DNA of 64,000 nt from Haematococcus lacustris. Lineage: Eukaryota > Chlorophyta > Chlorophyceae > Chlamydomonadales > Haematococcaceae. The position numbers were made by a program, and so were the translations under genes. Under the pieces are notes generated by a model. That model saw nothing but the letters and a program-made list of their open reading frames with translations. It made no database searches and was not told the DNA's origin. The first letter of the stretch is position 1; the number at the start of each line of letters is the position of its first letter. The stretch lies in the NCBI GenBank assembly GCA_030144725.1, contig JASKMD010000008.1, positions 20,709,593 through 20,773,592 of the forward strand, in the 5' to 3' direction. Below, one piece after another: positions 1 through 63,482 of this stretch.

Positions 1-1590
1 TGTGGCTGCCTGGCTGCTGCGTGGGGCCTGTGGGGGCTTGCGGGGGGCCACTACCGGGCACCACATCAGGCCTGCTGGGGGCTTCCAGCCTGCAGGCTTT
101 GTGGCACTGAGTTTGTCCAGCTCCTCCTCACAGGGCTGCTGGCCATTCACTGCTGAGCTGACCGGGCTAATGCGGTGCTCATCCACAAGCACCACCCTGC
201 CTCGCCGCTGGCCTGCGCCCCTGGGCCTGCACACCACCTTGCAGCAGGCTCGCAGCACCGCGTCAGCACCCCACCCACCCCCAGTGCCAATGGTAGCTGC
301 ACCAAAGAATACCACCAGCTGCTTGGCATGCCCATTGCGCTTCATGGACACCTCCGCCATGTCCTCCTCCAGCTGCACCATGCACACAAGGCACATACAT
401 GGTGGCTGACATGGTGGCACACGGTTAGGCATGGCACAATCAAGTACTCTAACCCACCACCTCTCAGTCCCTTACCCTCCCTCCCCCACTCTCACCTTGT
501 TGAAGAACTGCTCAAGCGCCCGGTCCTGGGCTCCGTACAGCCTCAGCCGCTGCCGTGCCCACTTGGGGTCCAGGTACACCTCCCACACCGCATCCCAGGT
601 GGCCTGGGTGACGGTGATGTGCTTCAGGTTTGCCTCCAAGGAGGTGCCGGCTGAGCTTGCTGCTGCCAGGTGCTGGAGGTGGGGCTTGATCTGAGCCAGC
701 CACCGCTCAGTGTCACGGCGGGCATTGTTCAGGCCGCTGGCATGCTTCACCTGGCCCTTGGTCAGCTTCCACCGGCGCAGTTGGTCTGCCGTGAGCTGGC
801 CTGACTGCGGATCCCACACCCCAGAGGCTGCGCTGACTGCCTGGGTGATGCCGGGGTCGATGCCCACCCCAATCTGTGTGTCTGGGTCAAACACGTACTC
901 ACGCGTCTCAGCTATGCCCTTGCCTATGTGGGGGAGGCCCACTGCATGGGCCGCTGCTGCTGCTGCACTTGGGCTGCTGCTGCTGCTGGCAGCTGGGGGT
1001 GGGGCTGGAGGAGGAGGAAGGGGGCGCGTGTAGTGCACGCACACGCTGACACCATCTGTGTCCACCAACCTCTCGAAAGCAAACCCCTTGTTGAGAAGCT
1101 TGTTGGTGTTGAACCACCTGGCCCAGTGATGGCTCAGTGCTGGCTCTGAGGTGAATGCTGCCCGGGTTTCCTTGGTCAGGCCCAGCTGCCTGCACACCCC
1201 ATGCAGCACCCTGCTGTCCACCTTGATGAAATGCACCCCCACCCTGGCCATGGGGGTGAGGGTGAAGGGGGGTGGGCAGGTCAGGGTCCGGGGACCAACC
1301 CCACGCCTCTTGCCGCGCTTTGGTTGCCCTGGCACAGGGGGGGTGTGGCCCACACTGTGGGGCTGCTGCCACCGCTCTAGCCACCGGCACACATGCACTG
1401 CATGGCGCATGCGGCAGGGCAGGGGCAGGGTGTCCTGCAGGGAGCCTTGATTCTTCATGCCCAGTAGGCGACGGTGCTTGTTGGCCTCCTCTATCAGGTC
1501 CGCCACATGGCCCTTGTCCAGGGTGGCGGCCTTCAGCTCCGAGCTGTTGGCGTTGATGCCATACCCCGGCAGCCCCTAGGCCGTAGGCAG
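1..1590 (-). CDS. Fanzor (TnpB-like) RNA-guided endonuclease, copy A, cut by window edge
   Basis: Minus-strand gene read in two exons: about 1590 to 496, then 372 to 1, joined in phase 0 across a 123-bp GT-AG intron. Exon 1 carries the RuvC-I motif GIDPG (Asp codon 856-858). Exon 2 carries the RuvC-II motif VVLVDEHRIS (Glu codon 178-180). RuvC-III lies beyond position 1 and is not visible. Spacing and motifs fit the Fanzor/TnpB family, whose members are RNA-guided DNA nucleases of transposons. The N-terminus is unclear: an in-frame TAG lies just upstream near 1585, so the first exon may start at an acceptor there, or translation may begin at the Met of GMKNQG near 1458. A Ser/Ala/Pro-rich insert precedes RuvC-I. 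Compared with copies B and C, this copy lacks 63 bp in frame after RuvC-II and reads EHRIS instead of EHRTS/EHRTT, so its activity is doubtful. Confidence 0.8.
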
Positions 1591-3478
1591 CTGATCAAGC
1601 TGTCAATTTTGATAGCAACCCAGTGGTCTTGGGAGGGAACGTGCTCAGCAGCGTGTGCCTGGTTCCTCGCGCCCGTTCTGTGCTTGCATGGCGAGCTCAA
1701 AGTTATCTCTGACTCGGCGGGTTGCTGGCCGCTGCTCCACTTAAGCTGCAGAAGCACCCTGTGGGGTGAATAGCTCTGGATCTTCACCAGCACCAGCTTC
1801 TATCAAGGGCTGGGCAGCAGGAGGGGTGTACAGCCTTGCTCTACGATATGCTCGCTTTTTGTACCCGGGCCATGTGTGTTTGAGCTATGCATTATGCAAC
1901 TTGGCAAATAAGAAATACTCACTCGTGTGCATCTCCTGGTCGGAGGGTAGCAAGGGCACACCCCGAGGCTACTCTCCTCCCTTAATGCACGCCCGACGGA
2001 GAGGGCGTAGTCTCTTTTTTTCTTTAGTGTGCATCTCAGGGGCAGCAACAGTACATGCTGCGTCACCTGTCGTTATGCTGGTTGCAGTTGCTGAGCCAGT
2101 GTGGTTACCCCGCCCAGATACATGTCGCCACTCCGCTCCTACTACTTTACAGCTGTTGTGTAATCAGTATAAGTTGAGAACATCTTGCATGCCAATCACA
2201 GCACCCATTTCGGAACCGGCCGATGGTCCTGGTAAGGTTGTGAAGTAGTGTAGGAAGATTTCATGTCGGCATGTAAGCCGCGGCTGGCTCCTAGTTAAGG
2301 AATGCAACAGCTCGTGGAGAGAAAGGGTTCGTCAATCCACATGCATGCTCGCTACAGTTACAAGATAGTGAAAACATTTGCCCCAGACCCATGCAAGACC
2401 AATGAGAAATGTGCATACAGAGTTGAAACTAATCTGTTCCTGACAGTGTGCGCTGTAGTCAAGCGCACTCCACGAACTGGACACAATGCCAGCTCCGTAG
2501 CCGGACACAGCGCCAAGCAAGGCAGTGTCCCCAATGAAGAAACAAGCCAACTCCTAGCTGAATGCCAGCTTACTGAGCCATTGCTTCTATGCTGGGGGTA
2601 GAGCTTGTGGTGCCCGGATGATCTGTAACAATGCTGATCCGACCACCTGCAATTGAAAAGACGTGGAACAGCAACAATGTCAGGTAGGTATACCAAGACA
2701 AAGCTGCACGGGGCGCAGCAGTGATGGTTGCGAACGCCTCAACACTCAAGGTGCACCCACCACGAAGAGGAAGAAGCCGAGCATAACGGGGCCAACAGGT
2801 AGCTTTTCCTTCTTAACCTGCACACCGCGACCTGAGCAAGTTAGCTTCGGCAGGCTAGAGCACATATCGAAGCACTACAGCTGGGACAGCTGGCGATCTC
2901 AACGCACCGTGCTGGTCTCGGCCACTGCCCCGCGCTTGTGGATGTTCTGGTGAAACTTGCTGGTCTTGGCGTTGGCGATGCGCTTTGAGGTGGTCTGTGT
3001 ATGAAATGCCAGGTGTCCACTCTGGGTTCTAGACTATTGTAAAAGCAGCCCAGACCGGGTTCCTTGTTGCCCCGTCCCTGCTCACCATCTTTGCGGAGGA
3101 GTGCACGTAAGCAACGCGTAACCCTCTCCTCTGCTACAGTCGCGAGCCTCTCTTGTCGTCTGGGAGCACTAGTTCAACGGTGTACGTACGGCCTTTCCTG
3201 GTGCGTTCCTGCGAATTTAACCGTGCCACCCTTCTCACATACACTTTTCGCGACATGCACAGTTTCTGCCTACTCAGCAACTTCTCTCTTGCTTTGTGGC
3301 ACGCGACATGGAAGCCATTGGTGGCTAACAAGCTGTGGGTGATCTGCAGTGTCCCTGCCAATAAGGTTGATCCCACGAGCACAAGTATACATGCTCAAGT
3401 CTTAAACGGTGTCTCAGGAGCAGGATAACTATAACTTGTCATCATTGGATACGTATCACTTCATTCCTTGGCTTTCAA
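1591..3478. other. Region without recognised gene
   Basis: Between the two Fanzor genes I see only short open frames with no family signature. I looked for a plus-strand RuvC-I motif that could supply the missing N-terminal half of the downstream Fanzor gene and found none. Base composition is more AT-rich than in the flanking coding exons. Confidence 0.5.
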
Positions 3479-4393
3479 ATGCACCTTCCCCTGAGCACTC
3501 TGGGAGTGTTTCTTGCGCGGGAGTGTTTCCTCCGGCTGTATGGAGGCAAGCAGCGCACGGTGGCCAAGTTCTGGGCTGAGGTGAGTAACCCGTGCCCAGC
3601 CAGTATGTGTGTCAGTGTGTGTGCCACAATGCTTGTCTTTGCCATGACTGGACGTGAGCTCACAATGTGTCTCTCCTTGTGTGCCTTGGCTGCAGACTGT
3701 CAAGGGTGCCAAGGTACGCTGCAACTCGGCTGCCACAGGTCGCCCCCTGGCCCTGGCCTATGGGGCAGCACGCTTCAGTGGCAGTGGCAGCATTGGCAGC
3801 AAGGGTGTGCCTGTCAAGCAGATGCAACGGGAGGCATGCAAGCAGTTCCCCGGGCGTGTGGTGCTGGTGCATGAGTTCCGGACCAGCAGGGTCAGCTCTG
3901 CCCGCACCAACGTGGTGGCAGGTCAAGCAGAGTCCTTCAGGTGAGAGACCTCAGGGGCATTTGCATTGATGGAGTGCAGTCATTACATAGCTGCATAACA
4001 GCCTCACACACCAGCCTAGACTGTGCCCTGCACCGTTTAGACTAGACATGGCTTGACTTAACACTTGGTTTGGCACGGAAGGGTCTTACAAGTGAGCACT
4101 GATACATGTTGCCTTGCAGGTGGCTGCACCCGGTGCGCAGCATGGCGACGCGGTCCCGGATCCGGGGCCTGATGTGCTCAACAAGCAACGGCATCAGGTT
4201 CTACGACCGAGACGTGTCAGCCGCGCTGAACATCGCCCGCATTGCAGCCGGGCCGGGCCGCCCTCGCGAGCTCAGCAGCTGGCTGGGCCGCCCCGCCATG
4301 CCTAACCCAGGCAGACCAGGCCAGGAGTGGGTGCAAGTGCGCGACAGAGGCCTGCTGCGGAAGTGGCAGCGGCGGCACCAGCGGCAGCGATAG
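3479..4393 (+). CDS. Fanzor (TnpB-like) endonuclease, copy E, C-terminal half
   Basis: Three exons join in frame: 3479-3580, 3696-3940 and 4120-4393 (TAG), with canonical GT-AG introns of 115 and 179 bp and agreeing phases. The joined peptide contains RuvC-II as VVLVHEFRTSRVSS and RuvC-III as FYDRDVSAALNI, both with their acidic residues. A short LMCS segment takes the place of a full CxxC zinc finger. The C-terminal tail is Arg/Gln-rich and basic. The sequence is related to copy A but clearly diverged, so it belongs to another subfamily. The N-terminal half with RuvC-I is not found upstream. The gene is therefore either 5'-truncated or has exons I cannot recognise; the left limit given is only the edge of the open frame. 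The intact C-terminal frame and clean splice sites suggest recent constraint or recent insertion. Confidence 0.72.
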
Positions 4394-4706
4394 TGACATG
4401 TGCATCATGCCATGAGCCAAACAAACAAACAATGCGATTGCCCCTTACAAAGGGGATGTGTGTGCGCTAGAGTGTGCATAGGGTAGGGCTCTAGCGAATA
4501 GGTTAGGGACACGTAGGGTAGGTCCCGACTCCTTGGTTAGGGACACACACCGGTCCCTCACTGTGGAGAAGTGTAGGGGCTTCACAGGAGGAGAGGGATA
4601 CAGCATGGTTGATATATCCATTCAGATATATCTACTGTCATACAGGTAGTTGTATGCAGAGCTGAGCACTCTGGAAGCACTCGTGATGTGACGTGCAGCA
4701 GCCACA
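4394..4706. other. Intergenic: Fanzor E 3' flank and ZW10 5' region
   Basis: This stretch holds runs such as acaaacaaacaa, a partly repeated TTAGGGACAC motif (two copies near 4501 and 4537) and an AT-rich patch with atatatc near 4612-4632. It could contain the 3' end of the Fanzor element and the promoter of the ZW10-like gene. No gene is visible. Confidence 0.4.
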
Positions 4707-5525: not shown

Positions 5526-5557
<32 letters not shown>

Positions 5558-10600: not shown

Positions 10601-10633
<33 letters not shown>

Positions 10634-10702
10634 GCAGGAGCAGCAGCAGCAGGAGCAGCAGCAGCAGGAGCAGCAGCAGCAGCAGCAGGAGCAGGAGCAG
10701 CA

Positions 10703-10738
<36 letters not shown>

Positions 10739-10834
10739 GCAGGAGCAGCAGCAGCAGGAGCAGCAGCAGCAGGAGCAGCAGCAGCAGCAGCAGGAGCAGC
10801 AGCAGCAGGAGCAGCAGCAGCAGCAGCAGCAGCA

Positions 10835-10880
<46 letters not shown>

Positions 10881-10903
10881 CAGCAGGAGCAGCAGGAGCA
10901 GCA

Positions 10904-10940
<37 letters not shown>

Positions 10941-10963
10941 CAGCAGGAGCAGCAGGAGCAGCA

Positions 10964-11003
<40 letters not shown>

Positions 11004-11026
11004 CAGCAGGAGCAGCAGGAGCAGCA

Positions 11027-11066
<40 letters not shown>

Positions 11067-11144
11067 CAGCAGGAGCAGCAGGAGCAGCAGGAGCAGCAGC
11101 AGCAGCAGCAGCAGCAGGAGCAGCAGGAGCAGCAGGAGCAGCAG

Positions 11145-11175
<31 letters not shown>

Positions 11176-14100
11176 AGCCTGGCATGTGACATACGCCTTG
11201 CCAGGGCTGTCTGCTTGCTGCCCTGCTGCTTGCTTTGGGCCAGGTGGCGGTGTTGCAGGAGCTGCTGGGGGGGCTGCAGGGGCTGAGCAGTCTTGGGGTG
11301 CGGGCCAGGGGGGCAGGCGCAGCCAAGGCAGGGCTGGCCCTACGCAAGGTCATCAACCAGGTGGGGTCAGGGAGCTGGGTGGTGGGTAGGTTCAGGCTGG
11401 CAGGGGCGGGGGGGGGTAAAGGCAGCACAGCACTCGTTAGAGGGATGGCCTCGACCGGACAAACGCAGTTACAAACATAGGGCGAGCTTACGCTCACCTA
11501 AAGGCAGCACAGCACTCGTTAGAGGGATGGCCTCGACCGGACAAACGCAGTAAAGGCCCTACCGCAGAGCGCGAACTAAAACTGCCTCACACTTTAGTCA
11601 AGTACTCCCAGAAACTCTGATGGTCTGACTGACCTCAACCTCCTTACTCCAACACTCCCACTCAGGCAGCCAGCAGAGTTACCCCCACACACTTGTCACA
11701 GCTTCACCATGCCCATACCAGACTTGCAGAACTCATACTTGACACCTGGCAGGGCCTTGGTCATGGCATCAGCCACATTGGCCCCAGACGCAAGATACTT
11801 GAACACCAGCTCACCCCGGGCAGCACGCTCACGCACAAAATGATGCAAGACATCAATGTGCTTGGAGCGGGCAGATGCAATAGGATGCTTGATGAGCGTG
11901 ATGGCTGCCTCATTGTCACACATGATGGTGACAGGCTCGACAGCAGAGCCCACAGAGAGATCAGCCAATAGCACCCGCAGCCACAGAGCCTCCTTGGCAG
12001 CTGCAGAGGCTGCCATATACTCTGCCTCTGTGGTGCTCACAGCCACTGTGGGCTGCCGGCGGCTGGACCATGACACTGCGGCACCATGCATTGTGAACAC
12101 GAAGCCTGTGGTGCTGCGGCGAGTGTCCAGGTCACCCGCAAAATCAGCATCACAGAACCCCACAAGGCCCTCAGCGCCACCAAAGGCCAGCCCATAGGAC
12201 ACCGTGCTTGCCACATAGCGCAGCACACCATGCAAGGCTTGCCAGTGCTGCTGTGTGGGTGCAGCCATATACTTGGCACACAGACCCACGGCATGAGCGA
12301 TATCTGGCCGTGTGCACACAGCCAGGTGCATTAGGCTGCCCACCAGCTCTGCGTAGCTGTGCTCCCCCATGCGCAACACCACCTCCCCCTCGCGAACTAG
12401 CTGCTCTGAGGTGCTGAGCGGGGTAGCCTTGGGCCTGGCATCAGCCAAGCCGAAGCGGTCAACCACCGCTGCGGCATACCGCTCCTGGCTCAGCACCAGC
12501 CTGCCCGCTGCCCGATCCCGCACAATCTCCATGCCCAGAAACCGCTCTGCACTGCCCAGCTGGTGGATGTCGAACACAGCTGCCAACCGCTGCTTCACCC
12601 ACGCCATGGTCTCAGCATCCCCCTTGCTCACTGCCAGGAGGCAGTCGTCCACGTAGACTGCCAGCAGGACCTTGCTGTTGCCCCGCACCATAGTGAACAG
12701 GCACGAGTCAGCTGCACTGGCTGCAAAGCCTAGCTGCTCCAGCTCAGCCTTGAGGCGGGCATGCCAGGCCCGGGGGGCTTGGCGCAGCCCGTACAGAGCA
12801 CGCTTCAGCCGGCACACCCGAGCCGAGCCGTCCTCGTAGCCAGCTGGCTGCTTCATGTAGATCTCTTCATCCAAATAGCCATTGAGAAAGGCTGTCTTGA
12901 CATCGAGGTGTTCCAGGTCCATGTCCCAAGCAGCAGCTGTAGCTAGCAGGGCACGCACGGTAGCATGCTTGCTGACCGGTGCATGCAGCTCGGTGAAGTC
13001 AACCCCCTCCCGCTGCATGAAGCCCTTGACCACGAGGCGTGCCTTGAGACGGGCAATGTGGCCCTGGCTGTCCTCCTTGACAGAAAACACCCAGCGGTTG
13101 TCCAGGGGACGGCACCCCTGGGGCGGGTCCACCAGCTCCCATGTGCGGTGGCCATGCAAAGACTCCATCTCTGCATCTGTAGCAACCGCCCACTGCTCAG
13201 CCAAGGCACTTGCACGCGCCTCCAGAATGGTGTGCGGAATAGGCACAGCAGCTGCGGGAAGCTCCAACACGCAGGCTGCCAGGCTGCCAGCTGGTGGCAG
13301 CCCTTGCAAGCGAAGCGACTGCCGCAGCGGGACCGGGCATGCCGCTGGCTCAGCAGCTGAAGCACTTGCCCCACCCCCACCTGCTGAGGCTGCGCTGCCA
13401 GCTCCGCTGTCACCCCCTGAGCTGTCAGCTCCCACTGCTTCCCCACCCGCAACCCCTGTGGCCTGCTCAGGGCCAGGCTCTGCGACTGGGGTGTGCACAC
13501 TCAGCTCCTCGGCTGTGGCCATGACCTCAGCCACCTCTGACACAGGCAGAGGCTCACCCCTTGCCAGCTCATCAAAGACCACGTCCTTGGTGACAATGAT
13601 TCTGCCACCAGGGACCAGCACCCTGTACGCCTTGCTGCCCATCTCATACCCAACCAGAACCCCCTGCACCGCCTTCCCTTCTAGCTTGGAGCGCATGTGC
13701 TGAGGGACGTGAGCATAGGCTGTCGCACCAAACACCCGGAGCGCTGAAATGTCTGGCTTGACCCCGAAAAAGAGCTCCCACGGCGTTGCACCCTTGCCCC
13801 GCATGGGCGAGAGGTTCCGCAGGTGGTTAGCTGTGCGCACAGCCTCTGTCCACAGCCTTGCAGGCAGGCCAGCTGTGTAGAGCATGCACCTGACCTTCTC
13901 AATCAGGGTGCGGTTCAGCCGCTCAGCGCTGCCATTCTGCTCAGGGCTGTAGGGCGCTGACCGCTGGTGCTGAATGCCCTTGCTTGCCAGAAAGGCCCTG
14001 ACCTCCTGGTTGATGTACTCCGTGCCGTTGTCGCTGCGCAAAGCCTTCAGCTTGCGGCCGCTCTGCGTCTCAAGCCACTGCACTGTGCTGATGATGACCC

Positions 14101-17100
14101 CTGGCACATCTGACTTGGCTTGGACACACTCCACCAAAGACAGCCCGCTGTACTCATCCAAGAAAGTGACCATATAGCTGTAGCCACCCACTGAGGCGAC
14201 GTGGAATGGGCCGCACACATCGGTGTGCACCAGATCAAGCACCCCCTTCACAGGGGGAGCCAGGGAGGGCAGCGTGTCTGCCACCCTGCGGTGCATCTTG
14301 CCCGCAGCACACCCGGGGCACACACCGCTGCCGGCTGCTTTGCACTGCGCTGCGCTGATGCTTACGCCCGACACCATCCCCTTCCCAATTAGGTCTGCCA
14401 TGGCCCCATAGCTCAGGTGACCTAGCCGCTCATGCAGAAGCTGCGGGGTCTCCGCTGTGACAGCATGGGCTGTAGCAGGGGGCTCACACCCCACCACAGC
14501 TGGCTCTGCTGAGCACCGGATCAGGTATGACCTGCCCACCAGCGCACCCTTGACGCAGAAGCGGGCTGGGTTTGCCCTGTCCTCTATCCTGATCCCACCC
14601 CCCTCCTGTACTACCCTCCAGCCCGCGAGGTCTGCTACCACGGTGGAGAGGTAATTGGCAGCTGCATCGGGAGCCCACAGGACACCACGCAGTGTAAAAC
14701 ACTGCCCGGACTCACTGACTAGGCGGACATTACCCACCCCATGGGCTACCAGCCTGGCTGTGTTCTTGCCCAAGGCCAGGCTCACCGGCTGTTCCACAGC
14801 TTGAAAATCATGCAGCAGGCTGCGGTCCGGGGTGATGTGGTGGCTAGCGCCGGAATCGGCCAGCCAGAAGCGCTCGCTGCTGAGCAAGCCTGAGGAGCGG
14901 GGCATGGCAGCAACCTGTGCTGCAGCAGCGAGGGATGGGGTGGGCTTGGCTGACACGCATGGGTATAGGGAGGAGAGCCCAGCTGCATGGCTCCAGCAGC
15001 ACTGCACCTCACCCCCTGCCCCACCACCAGCTGCACCATTGTGCACCGCACCGCCCTTGCTCCCACTGCTCCCACTGGCCCCACTGCTCCCACTGGCCCC
15101 ACTGCTAGGCACAGCCTGCATGGCCATCAGTTTAGCATGAAACAAGCCAGCAGTTGCACTACTAGCTGCCCGACCCTTGTCAGCCCCACGGTTGCCTGGT
15201 GCCCCACTGCCCCCACCTGCCCCACCACCAGCTGCCCCACCACCACCACCCCTGCTGCTACCGCTGCTGCTGCTGCCGCCTGGCTCCTTGCAGTCACGGG
15301 CAATATGCCCACGCTTGCCGCACTTGAAGCACTTTACACGGCTCAGGGCAGTAGGACTCGGTGAGGATGGGGAGGGATCAGCACCCGGCTTGGCAGCCGA
15401 ATGCCGGCTGCTGCTGCTGGCTGGACTGGCACTAGACCTGCGGGGAGCGTGTATGGCTGCCAGCTGTGCGGGCTGCTGGTTGCGCACACGCGCCTCTGCA
15501 TTCTGCAAGCGCCGCTTCACATCAGCCAGGCTAGGGGCGGACGCATCAGCCCCCTGGGTGATGAACTCTCTGGCCATATCATAGGGAGGCAGGGAGGGAA
15601 CAGCCTGCAACAAGGCTCTGACCTGCACAGCCTCACTGACGGTCTCGTCGGCCTCTGCCAACTCCAACACCAAGTCAGAGAGCCTGCTGCACAGCTGAGA
15701 GATGCTTTCCCCTGACCCCAGCTGCAGATGGTTGATCTGGTGCCACAGCTCAGAGCAATGGCTGAACCCTGTGCGCTGCTGGTCTGCAATGAGGGCCTTC
15801 CAGGCTGCAGATGCTGTCTTCGCTGCCTGCACCATGCTGAGGTAGTGCCCCTTGCAGCAGCACAATAGCCAGGCATAAGCGCGCTCATTGCGCGCTGGGT
15901 CGCTGTCTGTGCCACACATAGCACTCCAGCAGCCTGCCATCATTAGCGCACCCTGCGCATTGCCCTTCCACTCGACGAACGATGTGGAGGCATTCAGCAC
16001 GATGATAGGTGGCGACACAAATGGCAAAGCCATCGCACTGGACTGCGATCCGGGAGTTTCTTTGCCACCCTCAGATTTCGGCATTACGCAATGTGCGTGG
16101 GCCCATAACCTAAAGGCAGCACAGCACTCGTTAGAGGGATGGCCTCGACCGGACAAACGCAGTTACAAACATAGGGCGAGCTTACGCTCACCTAAAGGCA
16201 GCACAGCACTCGTTAGAGGGATGGCCTCGACCGGACAAACGCAGTAAAGGCCCTACCGCAGAGCGCGAACTAAAACTGCCTCACACTTTAGTCAAGTACT
16301 CCCAGAAACTCTGATGGTCTGACTGACCTCAACCTCCTTACTCCAACAGGGGGCCAGGCTGGAGGGGGGCCAGGCTGGAGGGGAGCCAGGCTAGAGGGGC
16401 GCGGGGCGGGGCGGGGCGGGGCGGGGCGGGGCGGGGCGGGGCGGGGCGGGGCGGGGCGGGGCGGGGCGGGGCGGGGCGGGGCGGGGCGGGGCGGGGCGGG
16501 GCGGGGCGGGGCGGGGCGGGGCGGGGCGGGGCGGGGCGGGGCGGGGCGGGGCGGGGCGGGGCGGGGCGGGGCGGGGCGGGGCGGGGCGGGGCGGGGCGGG
16601 GCGGGGCGGGGCGGGGCGGGGCGGGGCGGGGCGGGGCGGGGCGGGGCGGGGCGGGGCGGGGCGGGGCGGGGCGGGGCGGGGCGGGGCGGGGCGGGGCGGG
16701 GCGGGGCGGGGCGGGGCGGGGCGGGGCGGGGCGGGGCGGGGGCGGGGCGGGGCGGGGCGGGGCGGGGCGGGGCGGGGCGGGGCGGGGGCGGGGCGGGGCG
16801 GGGCGGGGCGGGGCGGGGCGGGGCGGGGCGGGGCGGGGCGGGGCGGGGCGGGGCGGGGCGGGGCGGGGCGGGGCGGGGCGGGGCGGGGCGGGGCGGGGCG
16901 GGGCGGGGCGGGGCGGGGCGGGGCGGGGCGGGGCGGGGCGGGGGCGGGGCGGGGCGGGGCGGGGCGGCGGGCGGGGCGGGGCGGGGCGGGGCGGGGCGGG
17001 GCGGGGCGGGGCGGGGCGGGGCGGGGCGGGGCGGGGCGGGGCGGGGCGGGGCGGGGCGGCTGGATGGGACTGCCGCCCCTGCTGGCCCTGAGCAGCATTC

Positions 17101-37373: not shown

Positions 37374-37479
37374 CGCTACATCGCCATTGCAGCATGTCCA
37401 CTTCAAATGGCATGGTTTGCATGACCACATTCGTTTGGTACTAGAGAGTGTGTCCAGGTATGTCTTGGGGGCTTCAGCA
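37374..37479. promoter_or_regulatory. Shared bidirectional promoter / 5' regions
   Basis: Only 106 bp separate the ATG codons of the J-ANK-TPR gene (minus) and the SOF1 gene (plus). Both core promoters must overlap unless one has an upstream noncoding exon. No TATA box is evident. Confidence 0.6.
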
Positions 37480-46600: not shown

Positions 46601-48188
46601 CATGCCCGTGGCACGCTCCATTCCTACATGGCCACTGGGCTCCCTGTCAAAACTAGCAGGTTGACGTTTGACTGTCTTAGCTCATCCTGCTTAGCTGTTG
46701 GCAGCAGCCTGCAGCACCACGCTGGTCATTGTGGAGTGTGGTGGGAGGACATGGGGGGCCTACAAAGACATGGTGGTAGTGGTGGGAGGACATGGGGGGC
46801 CCTTGGCTAGATTACATGGCCACAAGGGTACCACAGCCGTGTGGCCATGGTGCCACAGCCTTGGTTCACCACCAGGTACCACAAGGCATATGGGCTGGCC
46901 ACAAGGTCACAGTGCTGACTCAGGATGAGCCTCCAGGACAGTGTTGTGTTCGCTCAACACACAGCGTTCGCTATAATGCCATGTTTTAGAGGTCGCTTTG
47001 TGCTTTTAAATGGTCGCTTTGCGAGCTGCACTATCGCGCATCGCGCAATAACCGCGATGGGGTTTACCAAAGGATCCAAGGGGATGCACCTATGCCATGT
47101 CACTTTCAGCTATAAATCATGCATCAGGGCAAAACGAAAAAACAACACTGCTCCAGGATGGCTCCTGCTGTTGCAGGACGGCTACGTGCGGGTGGTGGAG
47201 GGGCAGTGGGCCGGATACGAGCTCGCTGTAACCCGAGCCTTGGGGCACCTCCACATGGCCCAGGTGATGAGGCGACTGCCTGGACAGCAGCTGCAGCTCT
47301 GTAACACAAGCAGCCTGCCTTCCTCCTCCTGCGCTACCATGCGTGGCCATGCGCTACCATGGCACACCATGCACCACCTTCTGGGGACTTTCAACCCACT
47401 CTACCCTCACCCACTCTGCCCTGACCTGACCTGACCACCCTTACCCACTCTGCCCTGACTGCCCTCACTCTGCCCTGACCTGACATACACCGCCCTGCCT
47501 GGCTTAACCCAGGCCCGGCCTGCCCTGTCTTGTGCTGTGCTGCCTGCAGTATGGCATCATAGACACACCTTTCGTGACACTGCTGCGCCTGACCCATGTC
47601 AACCCATGCCTGGTGAGGGCTGACCTGCGGAACACTGTGGGACCCTGCCTGCCCTGCCTGGCCCTGCCCTGCCTGCTTGCCCTGCCTGCCTGCCCTGCCT
47701 GGCCAAGCGCATGGGGTCACGTAGCAAGCAACAGCTGCTCCACAATGCCTGAGTTGGGCATGCAGGCAGCAGTGCTCAGCCAACGCAGCCTGTTCCTGGT
47801 GCAGTGATGCTGATGACGCTCATGGTGGTGGTGGTGACTAGGAGGGTGATGATGAAGGTACTTCAGCATTTGGAGTAGTGTAGTTCATCGTCAGTGCGCC
47901 ACACGTCTTACTGCAACCAGAACAGTGTGCTGGAAATTGCCCATGCAGATCCTGGCATCCGACGGCGTGTGGGACATGGTAGGCCCTGACGAGGCCGTGG
48001 CCCATGTGATGGCCAGCCTGGCCCAGGGGCTGAGTGCAGGCGAGGCCGCCAAAGCCTTGGTGCAGCTGGCGGTCAGCAGGGGCTTAGCCTCCCCAGATGG
48101 CCGGCAGGACAACACCAGCGCCATAGTGGTCAGCTTGGTCGACCGGCTGCCCATCCCTGAGGAGGCTGGGGAAGCTGAGGCAGTGTGA
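43647..48188 (+). CDS. Divergent PP2C-like protein phosphatase
   Basis: ATG at 43647 opens a basic N-terminal exon (MSNMLTDMPLRRSVS) to about 43826. Further exons: about 44428 or 44440 to 44515, 45152-45243, 45758-45910, 46292-46519, 47177-47263, 47550-47612 and 47949-48188; from 44515 on the phases agree. PP2C motifs follow in order: YILAVCDG, CGTTATTVVLQGGVLCLANVGDS, LNPDEAERI, LAVTRALGHLHMAQ, ILASDGVWDMV and DNTSAIVVSL. PP2C enzymes are metal-dependent Ser/Thr phosphatases. As spliced, the first metal motif reads CDGKALARN in place of DGHGG, so either a small exon was missed or the enzyme lacks it. The exon 1/2 junction is unresolved and falls at a dispersed repeat. Confidence 0.78.
43827..44062. 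repeat. Dispersed repeat, copy 2
   Basis: Matches 29984-30310 without its central extra 90 bp. It begins at the very end of the first PP2C exon (gggggtctaccgagtgccac), so the insertion may define or disrupt that splice site. Confidence 0.8.
44185..44260. repeat. Short dispersed repeat, also at 48425-48490
   Basis: Both places share gatacgctgtgtgcgtgacc and the following bases up to gaggctgtg, preceded by gccagcctc. No coding role seen. Confidence 0.7.
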
Positions 48189-49099: not shown

Positions 49100-50045
49100 T
49101 TGAACTGGTGCAGAACTGGTGCATGTGCGCCTACCACCACTACTGCCTGACCCCTGTGACAGGGCTATATAGCCTAGAGTTGGCAGGGACTGGACCCTGT
49201 CTGTCTAGGGTGGACCCTTGCTTTAGTAGGCAAGTCCTGGTAGGTCGCCAACGTCAGGGCTATTCAGAACAACGATGGTGACTTGCATGCCTTCGTTTGT
49301 TTCTTGTTTTTTAACCCATGTGCGCCTGTGTCTATGCGCCTAGCGTTGAGCTGCGTTGCTGAGGTCACCATACCTCGAGAGGGAGAAGGCAGCCAAGCAG
49401 CTTAACGGCTGATGGTTTAAGCGGTGAAAATCCGTTATCAGGATGCAGGGCTCACGTATCTCGAAGGTCACGCTCAGACCTGGTGGCCAGGTTGCATGAT
49501 GCTATGCTGGGCTGGTCACAATCTTGGCTGCTGGGCCTTGCCCTTGCGCAACCCGGGTATTCACCTGGTGTAGAGGTGCGTGACGAGGCTAGCATGGCTG
49601 ACATTGCGGCATTGCGGAGCAGCTGGGTATCACGCTCAGCAACGCAGGCGTTCGTCAGGGATGGTGGCACCTCGTGTCAGGATGCCTGGCATCATCACAT
49701 ACTGGTGGACCAGCAAGCACCACATGACTGGCCGCCCAAGACTTTGCCAGGGGTACCTAAACAGGTGACCGAGACCAGCTGAAGGGTGTGTTGAGGAGAT
49801 CAAGGTCAGGGTTGTCTGTCATCCACGTTGGCATGCATTGTCACCCACAGTAGTCGGTAGGCCGGCAGCAGCCATGGCACCTGGTGCACAAGTAGAATGA
49901 TGCCCATGCACATTCCATCCCCTTCAAGATAGGTAATGCTAGGCATGTGGCCCCATAGCACCGGCTCTTCTAAGTCCCCATGTCCCCTGCCCTGGCAGAG
50001 AGCACGCTGCCCATGAGCTCGGGGTCACCGTTCCACCAAAACAGT
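49100..50045 (+). repeat. Composite repeat block, copy 1 (pairs with 61500-62365)
   Basis: Long shared stretches with 61500-62365, including cctgacccctgtgacagggc, ggtggacccttgctttagta, a second LINE tail (49370-49435), and a conserved segment whose plus frame reads EASMADIAALRSSWVSRSAT in both copies. The homology ends near the block cccatgagctcggggtcacc at about 50010. The shared frame ends at 49782 and could be the remnant of a transposon protein; I do not recognise it. Confidence 0.8.
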
Positions 50046-50348: not shown

Positions 50349-55774
<5,426 letters not shown>

Positions 55775-56480
55775 TAACACAGTGTGAGATTGATAGGGAG
55801 GTGAGGGGTGGGGCTTGTTTGAACTGTGCCAGTGGAGTGGCATGGCAAGGTCCCTTTACTTGCCTGACTGGTCAGTAAGGGCAATCTGCCGCGAGCGGGA
55901 GCCAGGGGCAGCACGGCAGCCAGGGGCAGAAGGCGATCAAGGATCAGCGGTGGGCAGGCGACTGGTCAAGTGTCAGCGATTGCAACCAAGTCGCAGTAGC
56001 CCAGCTGAGCTTGGCTTTGCATGGCCCGCCCGCCCGCCCGCCCTGCGACAATAGATCCAAATTAGTTACAGCTGCAACGGCGGTCTTTAATCAGCCTTTC
56101 ACGGAGCCACTGAAGCACAGTGGCCAGCGTGCCTCGCCATGCAGCTGCAAAGGTTTCTGTTACAAACGCCAGCTAAGGCGGAAGCAACTGGGCAATGTCG
56201 AAATTGTGGTCAGTGCTGCAGTAGAGCTGGAGTTGCGGCTCCTGTCAGGAATGTTTGAAAAGGAGACCGCCAGCTGACCATTGTGAGAGACAGTTGCACT
56301 GTGGAAAATGGCTGTGAGGGCATGGGCGTGATAGCAACAAGTTGTTTCATGCTTGGACATACGCCGGCAGTATGCTAATAAGATAAGATTAGGCTACGGA
56401 GTAGGACAAGGGGTGTTGCAGCTAGGGGATAGTAGGGCAGGGGGTGGCAAAGCCAAGGTTAGGTAGGTTTGGAACATCAG
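55775..56480. other. Region between nuclease-like gene and Fanzor B tail
   Basis: It contains a short CCCG run (56028-56043) and an 88-codon plus frame (56011-56277) without recognisable domains. No supported gene. Confidence 0.4.
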
Positions 56481-56726
56481 CCCCCTTGTCCCTCACTAGG
56501 GCCTCCAAATGAGCCCTACTAGTACCTACTAGCAGCCACTAGCAGCCACCAACTAGATCCGACTCAAACAGTGTCATTGGGCTGTGTGGAGTAAACCCAG
56601 TGCACATGGCACATGAGCCGCCTACCACCTACACTATTGCCTGACCACGAGGGCAATGTGTAGAGTTGGCATGACAAAACATGCACTAATTGTAAGCTGA
56701 TGACAGCTCAACAAAGGGGGCACACA
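56481..56726 (-). other. Conserved 3' tail of Fanzor copy B (candidate right end / guide-RNA region)
   Basis: Read on the minus strand from the TAG of copy B, this noncoding stretch matches the tail of copy C for about 110 bp (tgtgtgcccc, gagctgtcatcagcttac, gtcaggcaatagtgtaggtg). It matches again at its outer end, aggccctagtgagggacaag followed by ggggct. TnpB and Fanzor guide RNAs come from this position in known systems; that role here is inference. Confidence 0.5.
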
Positions 56727-57349
56727 CTACTGTGCCTCAGCAGGCTGCTGCTGCTGCTCCTGGGCCTTGGGGGGCTTGTCTCGCACCCGCTTGTAGCCCA
56801 GGCCAGGGTACTCCTTGCCCTTGGCTGGCAGAGCTCCCTGCTCTGGCCAGTAGCACAGCTCCAGCGGGCGCCACCTGCTCTCCCCAATGCGCTGCATGTT
56901 CAGCGCTGCATTGCAGTCCCTGTCCAGCCACCTGCCTGGCTGTGGTGCTGGCTTGGCTTTGGCAGCCTTGCCCTTGCCCTTGGTGGGCTCAGCTGCCGGC
57001 TTGCTGCGCTTGGCTGGCGGGGGAGTGCTGGGCCCTGGCTCTGAGGCTGCTGGCTGTGTGGCTGCCTGGCTGCTGCGTGGGGCCTGTGGGGGCTTGCGGG
57101 GGGCCACTACCGGGCACCACATCAGGCCCCGCACTGGCTGGCCACGCTCCTGGCTCCAGGCTGGGCGGAGCAGGCGGTGTTCCACCTGCCCTGCTGGGGG
57201 CTTCCAGCCTGCAGGCCTGGTGGTACTGAGTTTGTCCAGCTCCTCCTCACAGGGCTGCTGGCCATTCACTGCTGAGCTGACCCGGCTGGTGCGGTGCTCA
57301 TCCACAAGCACCACCCAGCCTCGCCGCTGGCCTGCTCCCCTAGGCCTGG
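56727..57349 (-). pseudogene. Fanzor copy B, 5'-truncated but open from RuvC-II to the end
   Basis: An open frame of about 205 codons. It enters just before RuvC-II (VVLVDEHRTSRVSS, Glu codon 57297-57299), runs through a linker rich in Pro, Ala, Lys and Ser where other TnpB proteins have a zinc finger (one GLMWCP remains), and reaches RuvC-III RWLDRDCNAALNMQRIGES (Asp codon 56916-56918). It ends PAEAQ-TAG at 56727. At 57349 homology stops abruptly against GGTCCAGGTC-type filler next to another gene's 3' end, so RuvC-I and the recognition lobe are missing. It cannot make a complete nuclease alone, but is the best record of the C-terminal half of this subfamily. Confidence 0.8.
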
Positions 57350-57414
57350 TCCAGGTCAGGTCTAGGTCAGGTCAGGTCTGGTCCAGGTCCAAGTCCAGGG
57401 TCTAGTCACCACCG

Positions 57415-58409
57415 TCACTTGCCTGGGTTGGAGTAATGCTGCTGCATGGCCACCTCCAGCTGCATGGAGTGTGCGTCGATGGTGTTGGCGTCACCCGCCA
57501 GGTTGATGCTGCCCAGCTCCTGCAGCTTGGCCACCAGCGCCTGGTTGCTGGGGTCCTCAAAGGCTGGCATGAGCATGGGGTTGCGGTTGCGTACAAGGCG
57601 CCGCTGCAGCTGGTTGTAGCATGTCTTGAAGTTGGGGTTGGCGAAGAACTTGCAGAAGTCCTTGAGCTGCCTCAGCATCAGTCAAGGGGCAAGGGGAGGG
57701 CCAGTGGGTGCTGCGGGTGCAAGGGCTGCCAGGCGGGCGCTGCAGCGCCTTGGGGGGGGTTGCGTGACTGGCTCAGGTTCTGACTCTGACTCTGACTCCG
57801 AGTCAGACTGTGGCTCTGGCTCAGAGTCACAGTCTGACTTGGAGTCATAGTCAGTGTCAAACTCCATGCTGGCAGGCTGGGCAGGGGCAGGCTGGGCAGG
57901 GGCCCGCGGGGGTAGGGGGGGTAGGGGGGGAGCATCAGGGGGTTGGGGGGGCTGCACGGCTGGAGGCTGAGGGGCGCTGGGGAAGCCCGGGGTGGGGTAG
58001 CCCACCAAGCATGTCAGAAATATACGCAGGACAAACAAAGAGGCGATCACGCGGAGCTGGGAGTGCACCTCAGCCCGCAGCCGGAAGACTCCCGCAGCTT
58101 GCGCCTGGTCTTCTTGCAGCCGCGCAGCACTGCGCCCTCGGGGACCTTGATGACCTGCAGCCAAGCGAGGTTGCCATTTTGACAGGCCAAGACACATGGC
58201 GGGGTCAACACAAACAGTGCGGGGACACATAAGGCGGGGGCGCCACCTGACGTCGGGTCCCCGCCTTGAGCCGAGCGAGACGCTGCAATGGAACCAACAG
58301 GAGCGACGGGTTATCACACAGCGCGTAGCCCACAGTAGCCCACAGTCGGCTAGGGTCACGCACCTTTCTGTTTCTTTCCCGGGTCCTTCTTGTGCTTCTT
58401 CTTAGCCAT
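57415..58409 (-). CDS. Hypothetical gene with Lys-rich start (MAKKKHKKDPGKKQK)
   Basis: ATG at 58409 and a 46-bp first exon ending at a gtgcgt donor (58364) encode a very basic start. Downstream, good acceptor and donor signs flank a Lys/Arg-rich segment (VIKVPEGAVLRGCKKTRRKL, about 58157-58071). Further down a frame reads an acidic run (57850-57777) and a final stretch QLKDFCKFFANPNFKTCYNQ to HYSNPGK-stop at 57415. How these pieces splice together is not solved, and they may be more than one gene. The basic head suggests a nuclear or nucleolar protein. No family recognised. The 3' end lies only about 65 bp from the truncated Fanzor B. Confidence 0.45.
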
Positions 58410-58740
58410 CACGCTATGCGCAGTGCGACGGGCGGTGGCCTTTTCAAGCAACTTGGGTTTCCCGTGAAAAATACACGGTTGTGTGACCGCTGCTGTATTC
58501 AGCTGTGACACGCCCTGAGGAAAATTCAAATTTTGACGAACGGAGCCCATAGGCCACGGATAGCAATTGCGCCTGGTGCGTTGCAATCGTACTATTGCGC
58601 TGTATCCCGCTTATGGTTGTGCCTGGCCTGAAGCCTATGGCGCCCTCCACAATAGATGTGCTTAAGACGCAAGCTTGCTATTGGGTGCTAGTTGTTGTAA
58701 GGTCGTACGGGTCTGAATGCCTATCGCAACACCGAGCAGC

Positions 58741-59732
58741 ATCACGTGACGGTCCAGTCGAGCGCGACGCTGGCGGGAGGTGCATCTATAGTCCTATTAT
58801 ATCTACTAAGTGGCGCAGCACCATTAAGAGCGATATGCCCCATGCCTCGACTTGCCAAACTTCGGTGTTCCTCTGACTAGCGCCAGGCACTAGCCAGGGC
58901 TCCATCCGCGACCATTGTCACACACATGTGTCCGTAGCAAGCACATCTACACAACAGGTAAGGTTACTGCAACATGCAAGTGAGGTGTGAGTGACAGCGT
59001 CTCAGCAAGCCCATGGCACGCCCAGCCATGCCACAGCCGTGGCAACTAATAAAATCGTATGCCACTTAGCTTGTGGCCTGTTTGCACCCAAATGAAACTA
59101 CAGCCCAAGTTTCATGTGGCACTGACGATTCGTTCAGCACTAACATGGGTATGCAACCCCATAACCTCATGTCCTCTCACTACCACCATGTGCCATCCTA
59201 TTCGGCTGCAGGAAGGCATGCCAAGGTTCCAGCACCCCAACCAGTAGCAGTGAGGGGCAGGGAGGGGCAAGGCTGCAGGGGCAGGGGGTTGGGCTGGCGC
59301 ATGTGGCTGCAGGTCTGCCCGGCGTCCTTCCACCATCCTGGCAGCTGGCAGTGCCACATGAAACTTGGGCTGTAGTTTCATTGGGGTGATAACAGGCCAC
59401 TAGCAAAGTGGCATACGATTTTATTAGTTGCCACGGCTGTGGCATGGCTGGGCGTGCCATGGGCTTGCTGAGACGCTGTCACTCACACCTCACTTGCATG
59501 TTGCAGTAACCTTACCTGTTGTGTAGATGTGCTTGCTACGGACACATGTGTGTGACAATGGTCGCGGATGGAGCCCTGGCTAGTGCCTGGCGCTAGTCAG
59601 AGGAACACCGAAGTTTGGCAAGTCGAGGCATGGGGCATATCGCTCTTAATGGTGCTGCGCCACTTAGTAGATATAATAGGACTATAGATGCACCTCCGGC
59701 TCCTGTTGCGCTCGACTGGACAGTCACGTGAT
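58741..59732. repeat. Foldback element: 384-bp inverted arms around a 224-bp centre
   Basis: Left arm 58741-59124 and right arm 59349-59732 are near-perfect reverse complements; only about ten differences are seen, clustered at the outer 40 bp and near the centre. Both outer ends contain TCACGTGA-like bases. The centre (59125-59348) is G-rich and has no gene. This could be a foldback-type DNA transposon, or a locus producing long hairpin RNA. Confidence 0.9.
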
Positions 59733-60354
59733 TTTGAAACTCGTCGCTGGAACAATTTGTGCGATGCCCAGTGATAGAGACCACTACTATAGGCTCATCC
59801 GCGGGGAAACATCTTCGCCCACCACCATCGCGGCCGAACTAGAGGCCAGCGACACAGACACGGCTTGAGCTATAGAGCGGGCTGGTGCAAACGCGATGTC
59901 CTGAGGTGGCCTGTGTGACCCAAACTGACCCATGCGAACATTTTATCAGGCGTGTCACAGCTGAGCTGTATCCACAGCCCTGGCCTTTTGCTGCGACCAC
60001 AGTGCGCTCCCCAGGCTCCCTACCCCGCACTACTCCGCCACCTGTTTGGAACATCAGCCCACAGCAAATTGCGCCGCTGGTTCTCCCTTGGCTTGTTTGC
60101 TCAGCTGTGGGGTTACACACCGGGCAAGTGGCATGGTGCGGTGTGGCGTCAGTGAAGTGTGACGTGAGTCTGGGTTGAGTGAGGTGCAGAGCAAGGGGGC
60201 GTGGGTGGTGGTGCAGGGCAGTGAGGTTGGCTGCAGTGGTGTGCCCCTCACCCACCTCCTGTGTGGTCAGCTGAGTGTAAGGGTGGCAGAGTAATGCATG
60301 GTGCACTGAGGCTTGGCGCAACTAGGGTACGCTTGAGCTTTGCATGCTTTTCAG
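59733..60354. other. Region upstream of the 60.4-kb gene
   Basis: No supported gene. Part (60160-60354) is duplicated in inverted orientation at 51225-51430. Additional exons of the next gene may be here. Confidence 0.4.
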
Positions 60355-61234
60355 GCCGAGCGCAGTCTGCTGAAGATCAACGTAAGCATGGCGCTAGGCA
60401 GCCCCAGCTCCTGGCAGTCAGGCGTGAAGCTGCTGCAGGTGAGGCAGCCCCCTCGTCCCTCACTAGGGCCTCCATCTGAGTCGGACCACTAGGGACCACT
60501 AGGGATCATTAGCGGAACCACTCAAAAGGTGCTGTGTGGAGTGTACCCAACGCACATGGACAAGGTGCATGAGTGCCTACCTGCAGGCTGCAGGTGAGGC
60601 AGCGGGGCCGGCTAGGTTCAGTGTAGGCAGGTAGGGCCAAAGGTGGGGTGAATCGGGATGGGGAGGGAGATGGCTAATTGCTAGTTGTGCATGGAGTGGT
60701 GGGGACGAGGGGCAGGGGAGGAGGGGGATAATGTGCAGGAGGGTGTTGCAGTCACGGGCGGGAGGCTGGCAGCACCATGCGCCACTGGGGCTTTGTGGTG
60801 CTAGGCAGTGCTGTACTAGGCACTGCGTGGAGGGCAGCTGGTTACGGTGAGAAGCCTTCCCTAGGGGCCATAGCCCCAGCAGCTCTGGGAGCCCTGCTGA
60901 GAGCTCTGGAGCCCTGCACCTTAACACCACTGCTGGCCCTGCAGCAGCTGTCATGTCTCCCATGACAGCCGTGACGGTAGCCACCATATCTGATGTCAGC
61001 TGCTGCTGCTGCTGCTGCTGCCACATGTGGTGCTGGCTGCTGCTGCTGCTGCCACATGTGGTGCTGGCTGCTGCTGCCGCTGCATGGGGTCAGGTCCAGG
61101 CTGAAGAGTCGGTGGTGGCAGTGCCGGGCGAAGTGGTGCGCGCCATGCAGAAGCGCGTGAGCAAGGGTTTCTTCAGCTTGCTGCAGCAGTGCGAGGTCTA
61201 TGACATGGCCAAGCCAGAGGGGGCGAGCTGGTGA
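60355..61234 (+). CDS. Hypothetical multi-exon gene, partial
   Basis: Two coding pieces seem real. An exon at 60355-60438, between a good acceptor (ttttcag) and donor (gtgagg), encodes AERSLLKINVSMALGSPSSW to KLLQ. A terminal exon ending at 61234 encodes SVVAVPGEVVRAMQKRVSKG, then FFSLLQQCEVYDMAKPEGASW-stop. Between them a frame at 60777-60965 (MRHWGFVVLGSAVLGTAWRA) has a hydrophobic start and may be another exon. CTG triplets near 61000-61080 interrupt. The family is not recognised. The 5' end is not found, and a 139-bp insertion sits in the intron immediately after the first exon. Confidence 0.45.
60448..60586 (-). mobile_element. 139-bp solo Fanzor-tail insertion with 16-bp target duplication
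   Basis: The sequence gctgcaggtgaggcag occurs at 60432-60447 and again at 60587-60602, flanking 139 bp whose outer end (ccccctcgtccctcactagg on the plus strand) and body match the 3' tails of Fanzor copies B and C. Removing the insert and one repeat restores a normal exon-donor junction (ctgcag|gtgagg). The long duplication resembles target-primed (LINE-type) insertion. Confidence 0.85.
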
Positions 61235-61499: not shown

Positions 61500-62365
61500 C
61501 ATGTTCATGGCATGTGCTCCTACCACCACTGCTGCCTGACCCCTGTGACAGGGCTATAGCCTAGAGTTGGCAGGGACTTAGACCCTGTCTGTCTAGGGTG
61601 GACCCTTGCTTTAGTAGGCAAGTCCTGGTAGGTCGCCAACGACATGGCTATTCAGAACAACAATGGTGACTTGCATGCCTACGGCTTTATATTGCTTTTG
61701 AGCCCATGTGCACCTTAGTCTATGCACCTGGTTTAAGCGGTGAGATCCGTTATCAGGATGCAGGGCTCACGTATCTCCAAGGTCGCGCTCAGACCTGGTG
61801 GCCAGGTTGCATGATGCTATGCTGGGCTAGTCACAATCTTGGCTGCTGGGCCTTGCCCTTGCGCAATGCGGGTATTCACCTGGTGTAGAGGTGCGTGACG
61901 AGGCTAGCATGGCTGACATTGCGGCATTGCGGAGCAGCTGGGTATCACGCTCAGCAACACAGGTCTTCGTCAGGGACGATGGCACCTCGTGTCAGGATAC
62001 CTGGCATCATCACATGCTGGCGGACCAGCAAGCACCGCATGACTGGCCGCCCAAGACTTCGCCAGGGGTACCTAAACAGGTGACCGAGATCAGCTGAAGG
62101 TTGTGTTGAGGAGAGCAAGGTCAGGGGTGTCTGTCATCCACGTTGGCATGCATTGTCACCCACAGTAGTCGGTAGGCCGGCAGCAGCCATGGCACCTGGT
62201 GTACAGGTAGAATGATGCCCATGCACATTCCATGCCATGCAAAGATTATAACCACAAACATGTGGCCCATAGCACCTGCTCCCCTAATCCCCCAGGCCAT
62301 CTGCCGTGGCAGAGGGTATGCTTCCCATGAGCTCGGGGTCACCATTCCACCAGTGCAAGAGCACA
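61500..62365 (+). repeat. Composite repeat block, copy 2 (pairs with 49100-50045)
   Basis: Same order of segments as 49100-50045, including the LINE-tail remnant (61725-61745) and the EASMADIAALRSSWVSRSAT frame. Its first part (61475-61580) is also an inverted match of the Fanzor C tail at 63290-63400. The block runs directly into Fanzor copy C. Confidence 0.8.
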
Positions 62366-62407
62366 CTATCTGTCCATTCCTTGCACGAGCTTGTGCTGAA
62401 GCTGTAT

Positions 62408-63191
62408 AATGTCAGCCTCCAAGTGTGCCTTGTGTGCATGGCTGCAATTAGAGGAGGACATGACAAAGGTGTCCATGGAGCGCCATGGGCGTGCCAAGCT
62501 GTGGTGGTGTTCTTTGATGCAGCTACCATTGGCACTGGGGGAGGGTGGGGTGCTGATGCGGTACTGCGTGCCGGCTGCAAGGTGGTGTGCAGGCCCAGGG
62601 GCACAGACCAGCTGCGAGGCAGGGTGGTGCTTGTGGATGAGCACCGCACCACCCGGGTCAGCTCAGCAGTGAATAGCCAGCAGCCATGAGAGGAGGAGCT
62701 GGACCATGAGCAGCCCACCAGGCTTGCAGGCTGGAAGCCCCCAGCAGAGCAGATGGAACACCGCCTGCTCCGCCCAGCCTGGAGCCAGCAGCGTGACCAG
62801 CCAGTGCAGGGCCTGATGCGGTGCCCGGTAGTGGCTCCCCGCAAGCCCCCACAGGCCCCACGCAGCAGCCACGCAACCACACAGCCTACAGCCTCAGAGC
62901 CAGGGCCCAGCACTCCCCCGCCAGCCAAGCGCAACAAGCGCACCAAGGCTAAGCAGGAAGCTGAGCCACCGACCCCACCAAGGGCAAAAGCAAGGCACAG
63001 GGCAAGGTGCCCAGGCAAAGCCAGCCCCACAGCCTGGCAGGTGGCTGGACAGGGACTGCAACGCAGGGCTGAACATGCAGCGCATTGGGGAGAGCAGGTG
63101 GCGCCCGCTGGAGCTGTGCTACTGGCCAGAACAGGGAGCTCTGCCAGCCAAGGGCAAGGAGTACCCTGGCCTGGGCTGCAAGCGGGTATAA
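62408..63191 (+). pseudogene. Fanzor copy C, broken (deletion, premature stop, frameshifts)
   Basis: Homology to copy A starts inside its intron (tgccttgtgtgcatgg), continues into exon 2 (EEDMTKVSMERHGRAK), then a 1-bp deletion near 62500 shifts the frame before VVVFFDAATIGTGGGWGADA. RuvC-II VVLVDEHRTTRVSS is intact (Glu codon 62639-62641). A Cys codon of the family (TGT) is TGA at 62687-62689. Later frames shift again before RuvC-III RWLDRDCNAGLNMQRIGES (Asp codon 63054-63056), and a stop follows at 63191. Retained intron sequence shows it was copied as DNA, not from spliced RNA. RuvC-I is absent. Confidence 0.82.
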
Positions 63192-63235
63192 GACCGGCCA
63201 CCCAATGCCCAGCAGCAGCAGGCAGCCTGCTGAGG

Positions 63236-63482
63236 CACAGTAATGTGTGCCCCCTACTTGAGCTGTCATCAGCTTACATTAGCGCACATCCGTCATGCCA
63301 AATGTAGACTATAGCCCTCACGGGTCAGGCAATAGTGTAGGTGGTAGGCAGTCATGCACCATGTCCATATGCATTGGGTATACTCAACTTCAACACCATT
63401 TAAGTGATCCCGCTAATGATCCTTAGTGGTCTCTAGTGGTCTGACTCATACGGAGGCCCTAGTGTGGGACAAGGGGGCTAAA
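63236..63482 (+). other. Conserved 3' tail of Fanzor copy C (candidate right end / guide-RNA region)
   Basis: Matches the tail of copy B: tgtgtgccccct, gagctgtcatcagcttac, gtcaggcaatagtgtaggtg, then a divergent middle and the shared outer end aggccctagtg, gggacaagggggct. The divergent middle contains repeated TAGTGGTCT units like those of the 139-bp solo copy. Confidence 0.5.

Follow-up and report, generated by a model that had tools for sequence, protein, structure and literature searches.

The window analysed here, by which we mean the whole stretch of 64,000 nucleotides from contig JASKMD010000008.1 of the green alga Haematococcus lacustris, contains remnants of genes for Fanzors, the eukaryotic TnpB-like proteins. 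Fanzors of eukaryotes have reportedly been surveyed by Jiang et al. 2023. The copies were located by a motif scan and by tblastn searches using 14 related H. lacustris proteins, which recovered all five places where the first-pass annotation of this DNA had put Fanzor loci and agreed with the motif scan. The five copies (A to E) and two solo 3' ends (F and G) are the following:

1-1570, minus strand: copy A, a 5'-truncated Fanzor1-like gene that leaves the window (tblastn 80% to protein P0002)
3504-4661, plus strand: copy B, 5'-truncated, second family (its last two exons match P0126 at 95-99% in tblastn)
51697-51890, minus strand: copy C, reduced to the last (DRD) exon of an A-type gene that has diverged; the exon appears to be frame-shifted
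56481-60043, minus strand: copy D, a 3.56-kb element with an open C-terminal exon at 56730-57347
62353-63477, plus strand: copy E, 5'-truncated, with the C-terminal exon and a 3' region of ~275 bp ending in GGGGG
60449-60586, minus strand: F, solo 3' end (~137 bp) of an A-type element, an 85% inverted match to the 3' end of E
~42755-42800, minus strand: G, solo 3' end (~45 bp) of an A-type element, matching the 3'-end pattern given below with 0 mismatches

All copies in the window are incomplete, and none could encode a whole nuclease as it stands, the last part of A lying outside the window. Copy A starts abruptly near the residues GYGIN, and N-terminal exons, which were looked for upstream by tblastn, were not found. 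Its exons span approximately 496-1570 and 1-372 and are separated by a predicted intron (373-495, AACAAG/GTGAGA...GTGCAG/CTGGAG), the splice sites of which were read from the sequence. The motif scan placed GIDPG at 850-861 and VVLVDEHRIS at 166-195, both on the minus strand, while the DRD of A would fall beyond base 1 of the window. Copy B begins in the exon preceding RuvC-II, retains its predicted introns between exon pieces at about 3510-3577, 3690-3940 and 4120-4390, and carries VVLVHEFRTS (3858-3887, plus strand); its last exon reads YDRDVS rather than DRDxN. In copy C the motif is DRDTN (51860-51874, minus strand). Copy D joins N-terminal exons, pieces of which lie at 57499-57642 and 58006-58157, to the RuvC-II exon, so that the middle of the gene including RuvC-I is missing; VVLVDEHRTS (57285-57314) and DRDCN (56910-56924), both on the minus strand, are preserved. 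Copy E, which is interrupted by an in-frame stop and a frameshift, contains VVLVDEHRTT and DRDCN (63048-63062, plus strand), and its strand at the canonical glutamate (Glu) place reads VVVFFDAATIG. None of B, C, D and E contains the RuvC-I part. When the DRDxN core was searched for as a DNA pattern, the window matched twice (D and E) compared with 0 matches in 100 shuffles. An LDPG at 57394-57405 (minus strand) was taken as a chance occurrence, since it sits between stops in a tandem repeat beside D.

Two further observations concern the surroundings of these copies. Copy D encloses an inverted repeat of 384 bp (58741-59124 and 59349-59732, 97% identical, 224 bp between the arms), which has no clear duplication at its ends. 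The 5' junction of E (62352/62353) adjoins the end of a dispersed repeat (61510-62352), which is also present at 49121-50038 with 90-92% identity.

Pairwise identities place A, D and E in one family: D and E are 81-97% identical over three stretches, D and A 73% over 97 amino acids, and A and E 84% over 62 amino acids and 53% over 64 amino acids across the gap in A. Judged by these comparisons, C, whose short exon is 62-68% identical to D and E (66-68% to D alone), counts as a diverged relative of this family, and B, 43% identical to D over 53 amino acids, represents a separate one. The first-pass annotation had put A to D in one lineage with E apart, which these identities contradict. A reading of the five loci as working genes is likewise unsupported, because every copy is incomplete. 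Its view that all five carry Fanzor-derived sequence is supported; of the motifs that it listed, GIDPG occurs only in A, and DRDxN occurs in C, D and E. Its coordinates were roughly correct for A, B and E; the extent of D and the restriction of C to a last exon are as listed above.

Relatives were sought with two protein searches, one with copy A (822 clusters at E ≤ 0.01 from 7,984 scored candidates) and one with the tail of copy B (210 clusters at E ≤ 0.001 from 1,496 scored candidates). Neither 822 nor 210 should be read as a copy number, nor do the two describe distinct sets: clustering was done at 90% identity, fragments and fused models are among the clusters, and the searches may share members, P0077 having been found in both. 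We examined the best 120 of the 822 and the best 120 of the 210, all of which belong to H. lacustris, and fetched 239 proteins (120 A-type and 119 new ones from the second search). The chromosome-level H. lacustris assembly comprises 316 Mb; for its gene number, the excerpts of PMC10400597 give 30,575 in a table and 32,416 in the running text. Alignment A3 puts the identity between the two large families at 30-37%. A third family, located outside the window, reads GVDPG and LVDEFRTS, the latter being present in 36 of the 239 fetched proteins. Searches with the two Haematococcus alignments found no relatives in viral contigs. The first-pass annotation's expansion is supported by relatives that number in the hundreds; its word "locally" is unsupported, because they are spread over many chromosome-sized contigs. 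Six gene models (P0139, P0160, P0172, P0205, P0216 and P0237) combine host-type Pfam domains, such as PF13561, PF00254, PF00056, PF00867 and PF00237, with a Fanzor tail, and appear to be annotation fusions or exonised fragments.

The active site can be followed in 81 of the 239 proteins (the first search contributed 54 and the second 27), in which all three motifs could be placed at sensible spacing. The first acid of RuvC-I is aspartate in 80 of these 81 placed models and asparagine in one; the GIDPG of copy A contains the DPG that excerpts of PMC10711439 give for Fanzors, and the B family reads GCDPG together with HEFRTS. A regular expression had suggested that the B family lacks RuvC-I, which its GCDPG rules out. 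The strand that carries the RuvC-II glutamate in canonical TnpB follows an acid-free pattern in 71 of the 81 models (LVVFFGAA, LALAYGAA or close variants), where the pattern tolerates an acid only at one free place; the remaining ten, inspected by eye, contain no acid either, except inside an insertion in P0230. The glutamate is instead relocated, as described for Fanzors, into [DH]E[FH]RTS, six residues before the zinc-finger position, and the window copies read LVDEHR or LVHEFR at this place. The RD of RuvC-III is found in D and E (DRDCN), C (DRDTN) and B (YDRDVS). All three motifs occur in order in 63 of the 64 A-type models that hold all three (of the 120 examined), P0088 being out of order. 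Since the 81 models were selected by these same motifs, their retention is suggestive and provides no retention count. The order of DPG, relocated Glu and DRD fits the Fanzor signature published in PMC10711439, as far as its excerpts show, and upholds the first-pass assignment of these loci to Fanzors.

In both large families the zinc ribbon is lost according to the aligned sequences, and so it is in all three H. lacustris families seen. Serine (Ser) occupies the position of the first zinc cysteine in 74 of the 81 placed models, the other seven differing through local changes, and CxxC was found at the place of the first pair in none of the 81. Likewise, none of the 63 A-type models with ordered motifs has CxxC between Glu and DRD. 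The second search added 119 proteins, of which 87 contain both Glu and DRD; CxxC occurs in one of the 87 (P0153, CLMC), although not at the first-pair place. A search with a canonical zinc-bearing tail scored 12 candidates, none at E ≤ 0.1. The solved Fanzor1 of Parasitella (PpFz1, 9cf0), reached with a canonical tail and not with a Haematococcus protein as query, reads LIDEFRTSSFCPKC at the Glu place; the corresponding residues are LVDEFRTSRVSSAY, LVHEFRTSRVSSAR or LVDEHRTSRVSSAV in the Haematococcus families. The serine falls exactly at the first zinc cysteine, and PpFz1 has CPKC where these families have SSAV or similar.

Insertion anatomy provides a further line of evidence. D, E, F and G share the 3' end GGAGGCCCTAGTG(A/T)GGGAC(A/G)AGGGGG, followed by CT, and this pattern matches only these four places on both strands (0.01 expected). 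Perfect target-site duplications flank B, D and F:

3491-3503: 5' duplication of B, CTGAGCACTCTGG, 13 bp, present as two copies only in the window, both on the plus strand
4662-4674: 3' duplication of B, second copy of CTGAGCACTCTGG
56467-56480: duplication on the 3' side of D, CTGATGTTCCAAAC on the minus strand, 14 bp, or 16 if two bases that also belong to the element end are counted
60044-60057: duplication on the 5' side of D, partner of CTGATGTTCCAAAC
60432-60448 and 60587-60603, minus strand: duplication of F, GCTGCCTCACCTGCAGC, 17 bp, the first bases of which are also shared with the element

CTG stands at the start of the duplication, or one base after it, in all three cases, and duplications were seen in three of the five testable insertions (B, D and F as opposed to E and G). 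Equal-length exact matches at random points arose in 0.2-0.6% of 4,000 trials each when tandem arrays were masked, and in 5-6% without masking. No A-tail was found at the element ends. The pair 60446-60581/63343-63479 (85%) was considered as terminal inverted repeats of E and rejected, since its left arm is F, a separate solo end that carries a duplication itself. Folding of the 3' region was unconvincing: the z-scores were -0.8 for E and -2.6 for D, and 2 of 53 pairs were compensatory in a comparison of three sequences.

From these results we conclude, with a probability of roughly 0.8, that the window copies represent partial, dead insertions of two large Fanzor1-like H. lacustris families, whose fuller gene models retain the split RuvC site and are zinc-free. 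Several results weigh against this conclusion. In the window, A, B, D and E show no zinc ribbon at the DNA level, and excerpts of PMC3627910 call the C4 zinc finger strictly conserved in Fanzors; however, it may not be a strict criterion, because PMC10711439, in the part available, attributes a zinc finger to "many" Fanzors. The profile search proposed in the first-pass annotation as a check gave weak support from curated profiles, the best Pfam TNB match having E=0.005 and the bit score shown for one member being 14.9 against a cut-off of 26.3, and family profiles searched against PDB found no TnpB or Fanzor chain. No duplication of at least 12 bp with up to one mismatch was found for E within 9 kb, and for G only matches of 10-11 bp with one mismatch were present within 1.5 kb. 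Finally, no T-rich tetranucleotide directly precedes the duplications of B, D and F.

Structure prediction, another check proposed at first pass, was weak. AlphaFold gave poor models for the two relatives, with predicted local distance difference test (pLDDT) values of 48.5 and 40.7, yet a Foldseek search of the P0016 model against 350,542 chains ranked the Fanzor SpuFz first (E=0.18, non-significant) and again at 4, 5 and 6. Among the 50 matches listed for P0016 by VIA, only the SpuFz rows span from the N-terminus to residue 427, and no other convincing family appears among the matches listed by VIA and Foldseek. Because the profile and fold tests are weak, the Fanzor identity relies mainly on the motifs and their order, and an RNase H-like core as well as nuclease activity are to be regarded as predicted for these families. 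The weak scores of curated profiles and PDB sequences would also be expected if the motifs were chance matches or belonged to an unrelated repetitive protein. We consider this very improbable in view of the fixed motif order in 63 of 64 models, the DEFRTS match to a solved Fanzor1 and the first rank of a Fanzor in Foldseek.

If the conclusion of dead Fanzor1-like insertions is correct, fuller copies would make an RNA-guided nuclease, the guide RNA of which would be copied from the 3' end of the element into its flank, as in known Fanzors. The nuclease would help the element to persist, and the elements would move as DNA with machinery supplied in trans, leaving insertions with a constant 3' end, a 5' end that varies from copy to copy and a flanking target duplication of 13-17 bp with a CTG start. 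The mobile form was not a spliced mRNA, because predicted introns persist in A and B. Helitron-type mobilisation, nuclease activity and guide RNA are all putative at this stage, and the position of a guide RNA at the element 3' end would follow by analogy. A more far-reaching version, which we regard as tentative and rather doubtful, is that zinc-free Fanzor1 nucleases are still selected for their RuvC site in about a thousand gene copies, that they spread one-endedly from a 3' end which doubles as guide scaffold, and that solo ends such as F could be minimal mobile units.

The 5' truncation, the fixed 3' end and the duplications of 13-17 bp would also be expected if the copies had spread by target-primed reverse transcription with the machinery of a non-long terminal repeat (non-LTR) retrotransposon instead of a Helitron, and the window does contain a frame with an RVT_1 reverse transcriptase domain. 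The predicted introns kept in A and B and the lack of an A-tail indicate that the source was not a spliced and tailed mRNA, and we judge this route unlikely overall; it retains some weight, because Helitron-type 5' ends would still have to be assumed and the T-rich target was not seen. Furthermore, the families could be Fanzor-derived without being nucleases any longer, the ribbon having decayed as only DNA ends and RNA matter while the coding sequence is carried along. The loss of the ribbon in all three families and the broken state of every window copy would agree with this, and pairwise ratios of non-synonymous to synonymous substitution rates (dN/dS) among window copies are noisy (0.41 to 2.2, with too few sites). 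However, DPG, Glu and DRD are kept in both large families while the cysteines are gone, which is only suggestive in models picked by motif but makes loss of nuclease function improbable in our view.

The preferred reading, i.e. dead partial insertions of zinc-free Fanzor1-like families, describes a known kind of mobile gene, here present only as wrecks; the zinc-free families and their number are unusual. On the basis of these comparisons, the window copies resemble the Helitron2-linked Fanzors of Chlamydomonas. CRe-1, CRe-2 and CRe-3 of Chlamydomonas reinhardtii occur in hundreds of copies and were assigned to Helitron2 by their ends, and excerpts of PMC3627910 report 5' truncation, internal deletion, intact 3' ends and duplications of ~7-19 bp for the Chlamydomonas copies. 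As far as these excerpts go, both systems have in common green-algal Fanzor1 genes with introns and this whole set of insertion features, whereas the C4 zinc finger is absent here and the duplications start with CTG instead of following T-rich tetranucleotide targets. The solved Fanzor1 proteins SpuFz1, GtFz1 and PpFz1 have the same motif order, LIDEFRTS of PpFz1 corresponding to LVDEFRTS of the third H. lacustris family; in contrast to them, the families have no sequence hit in PDB and lack the CPKC that PpFz1 keeps. With TnpB of IS200/IS605 and IS607 they share a DRDxNAAlN motif and a RuvC-I strand that is weakly in register with phage TnpBs, but DPG replaces D-hydrophobic-G, Glu has moved next to the zinc position, the zinc ribbon is missing and the genes contain eukaryotic introns.

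If fuller copies are active, the zinc ribbon would be dispensable for a Fanzor, and the families would offer natural variants for probing the role of the ribbon. With its Fanzor-derived models numbering from hundreds to about a thousand, the genome would also be suited to study how a nuclease aids elements that lack terminal repeats. The results suggest that profile searches based on the zinc ribbon, such as Pfam TNB, would miss families of this type.

The window harbors additional features. A Copia-type LTR retrotransposon at 11417-16348 (minus strand) has LTRs of 238 bp that are 100% identical, a frame of 1488 amino acids (gag, rve, RVT_2) and GGGGG at both flanks, and looks recent from its sequence. 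The frame with the RVT_1 domain (22263-24869, plus strand, 868 amino acids) probably belongs to a non-LTR type element. Tandem arrays at 10601-11173, 16401-17059, 18416-19519, 52756-53145 and 53672-54241 consist of units of 4-17 bp with 93-100% matches and give rise to low-complexity frames on both strands. Host exons encode a DnaJ domain (36981-37532, minus strand), WD40 repeats (37291-38265, plus strand) and the end of a PP2C phosphatase (47856-48185, plus strand).

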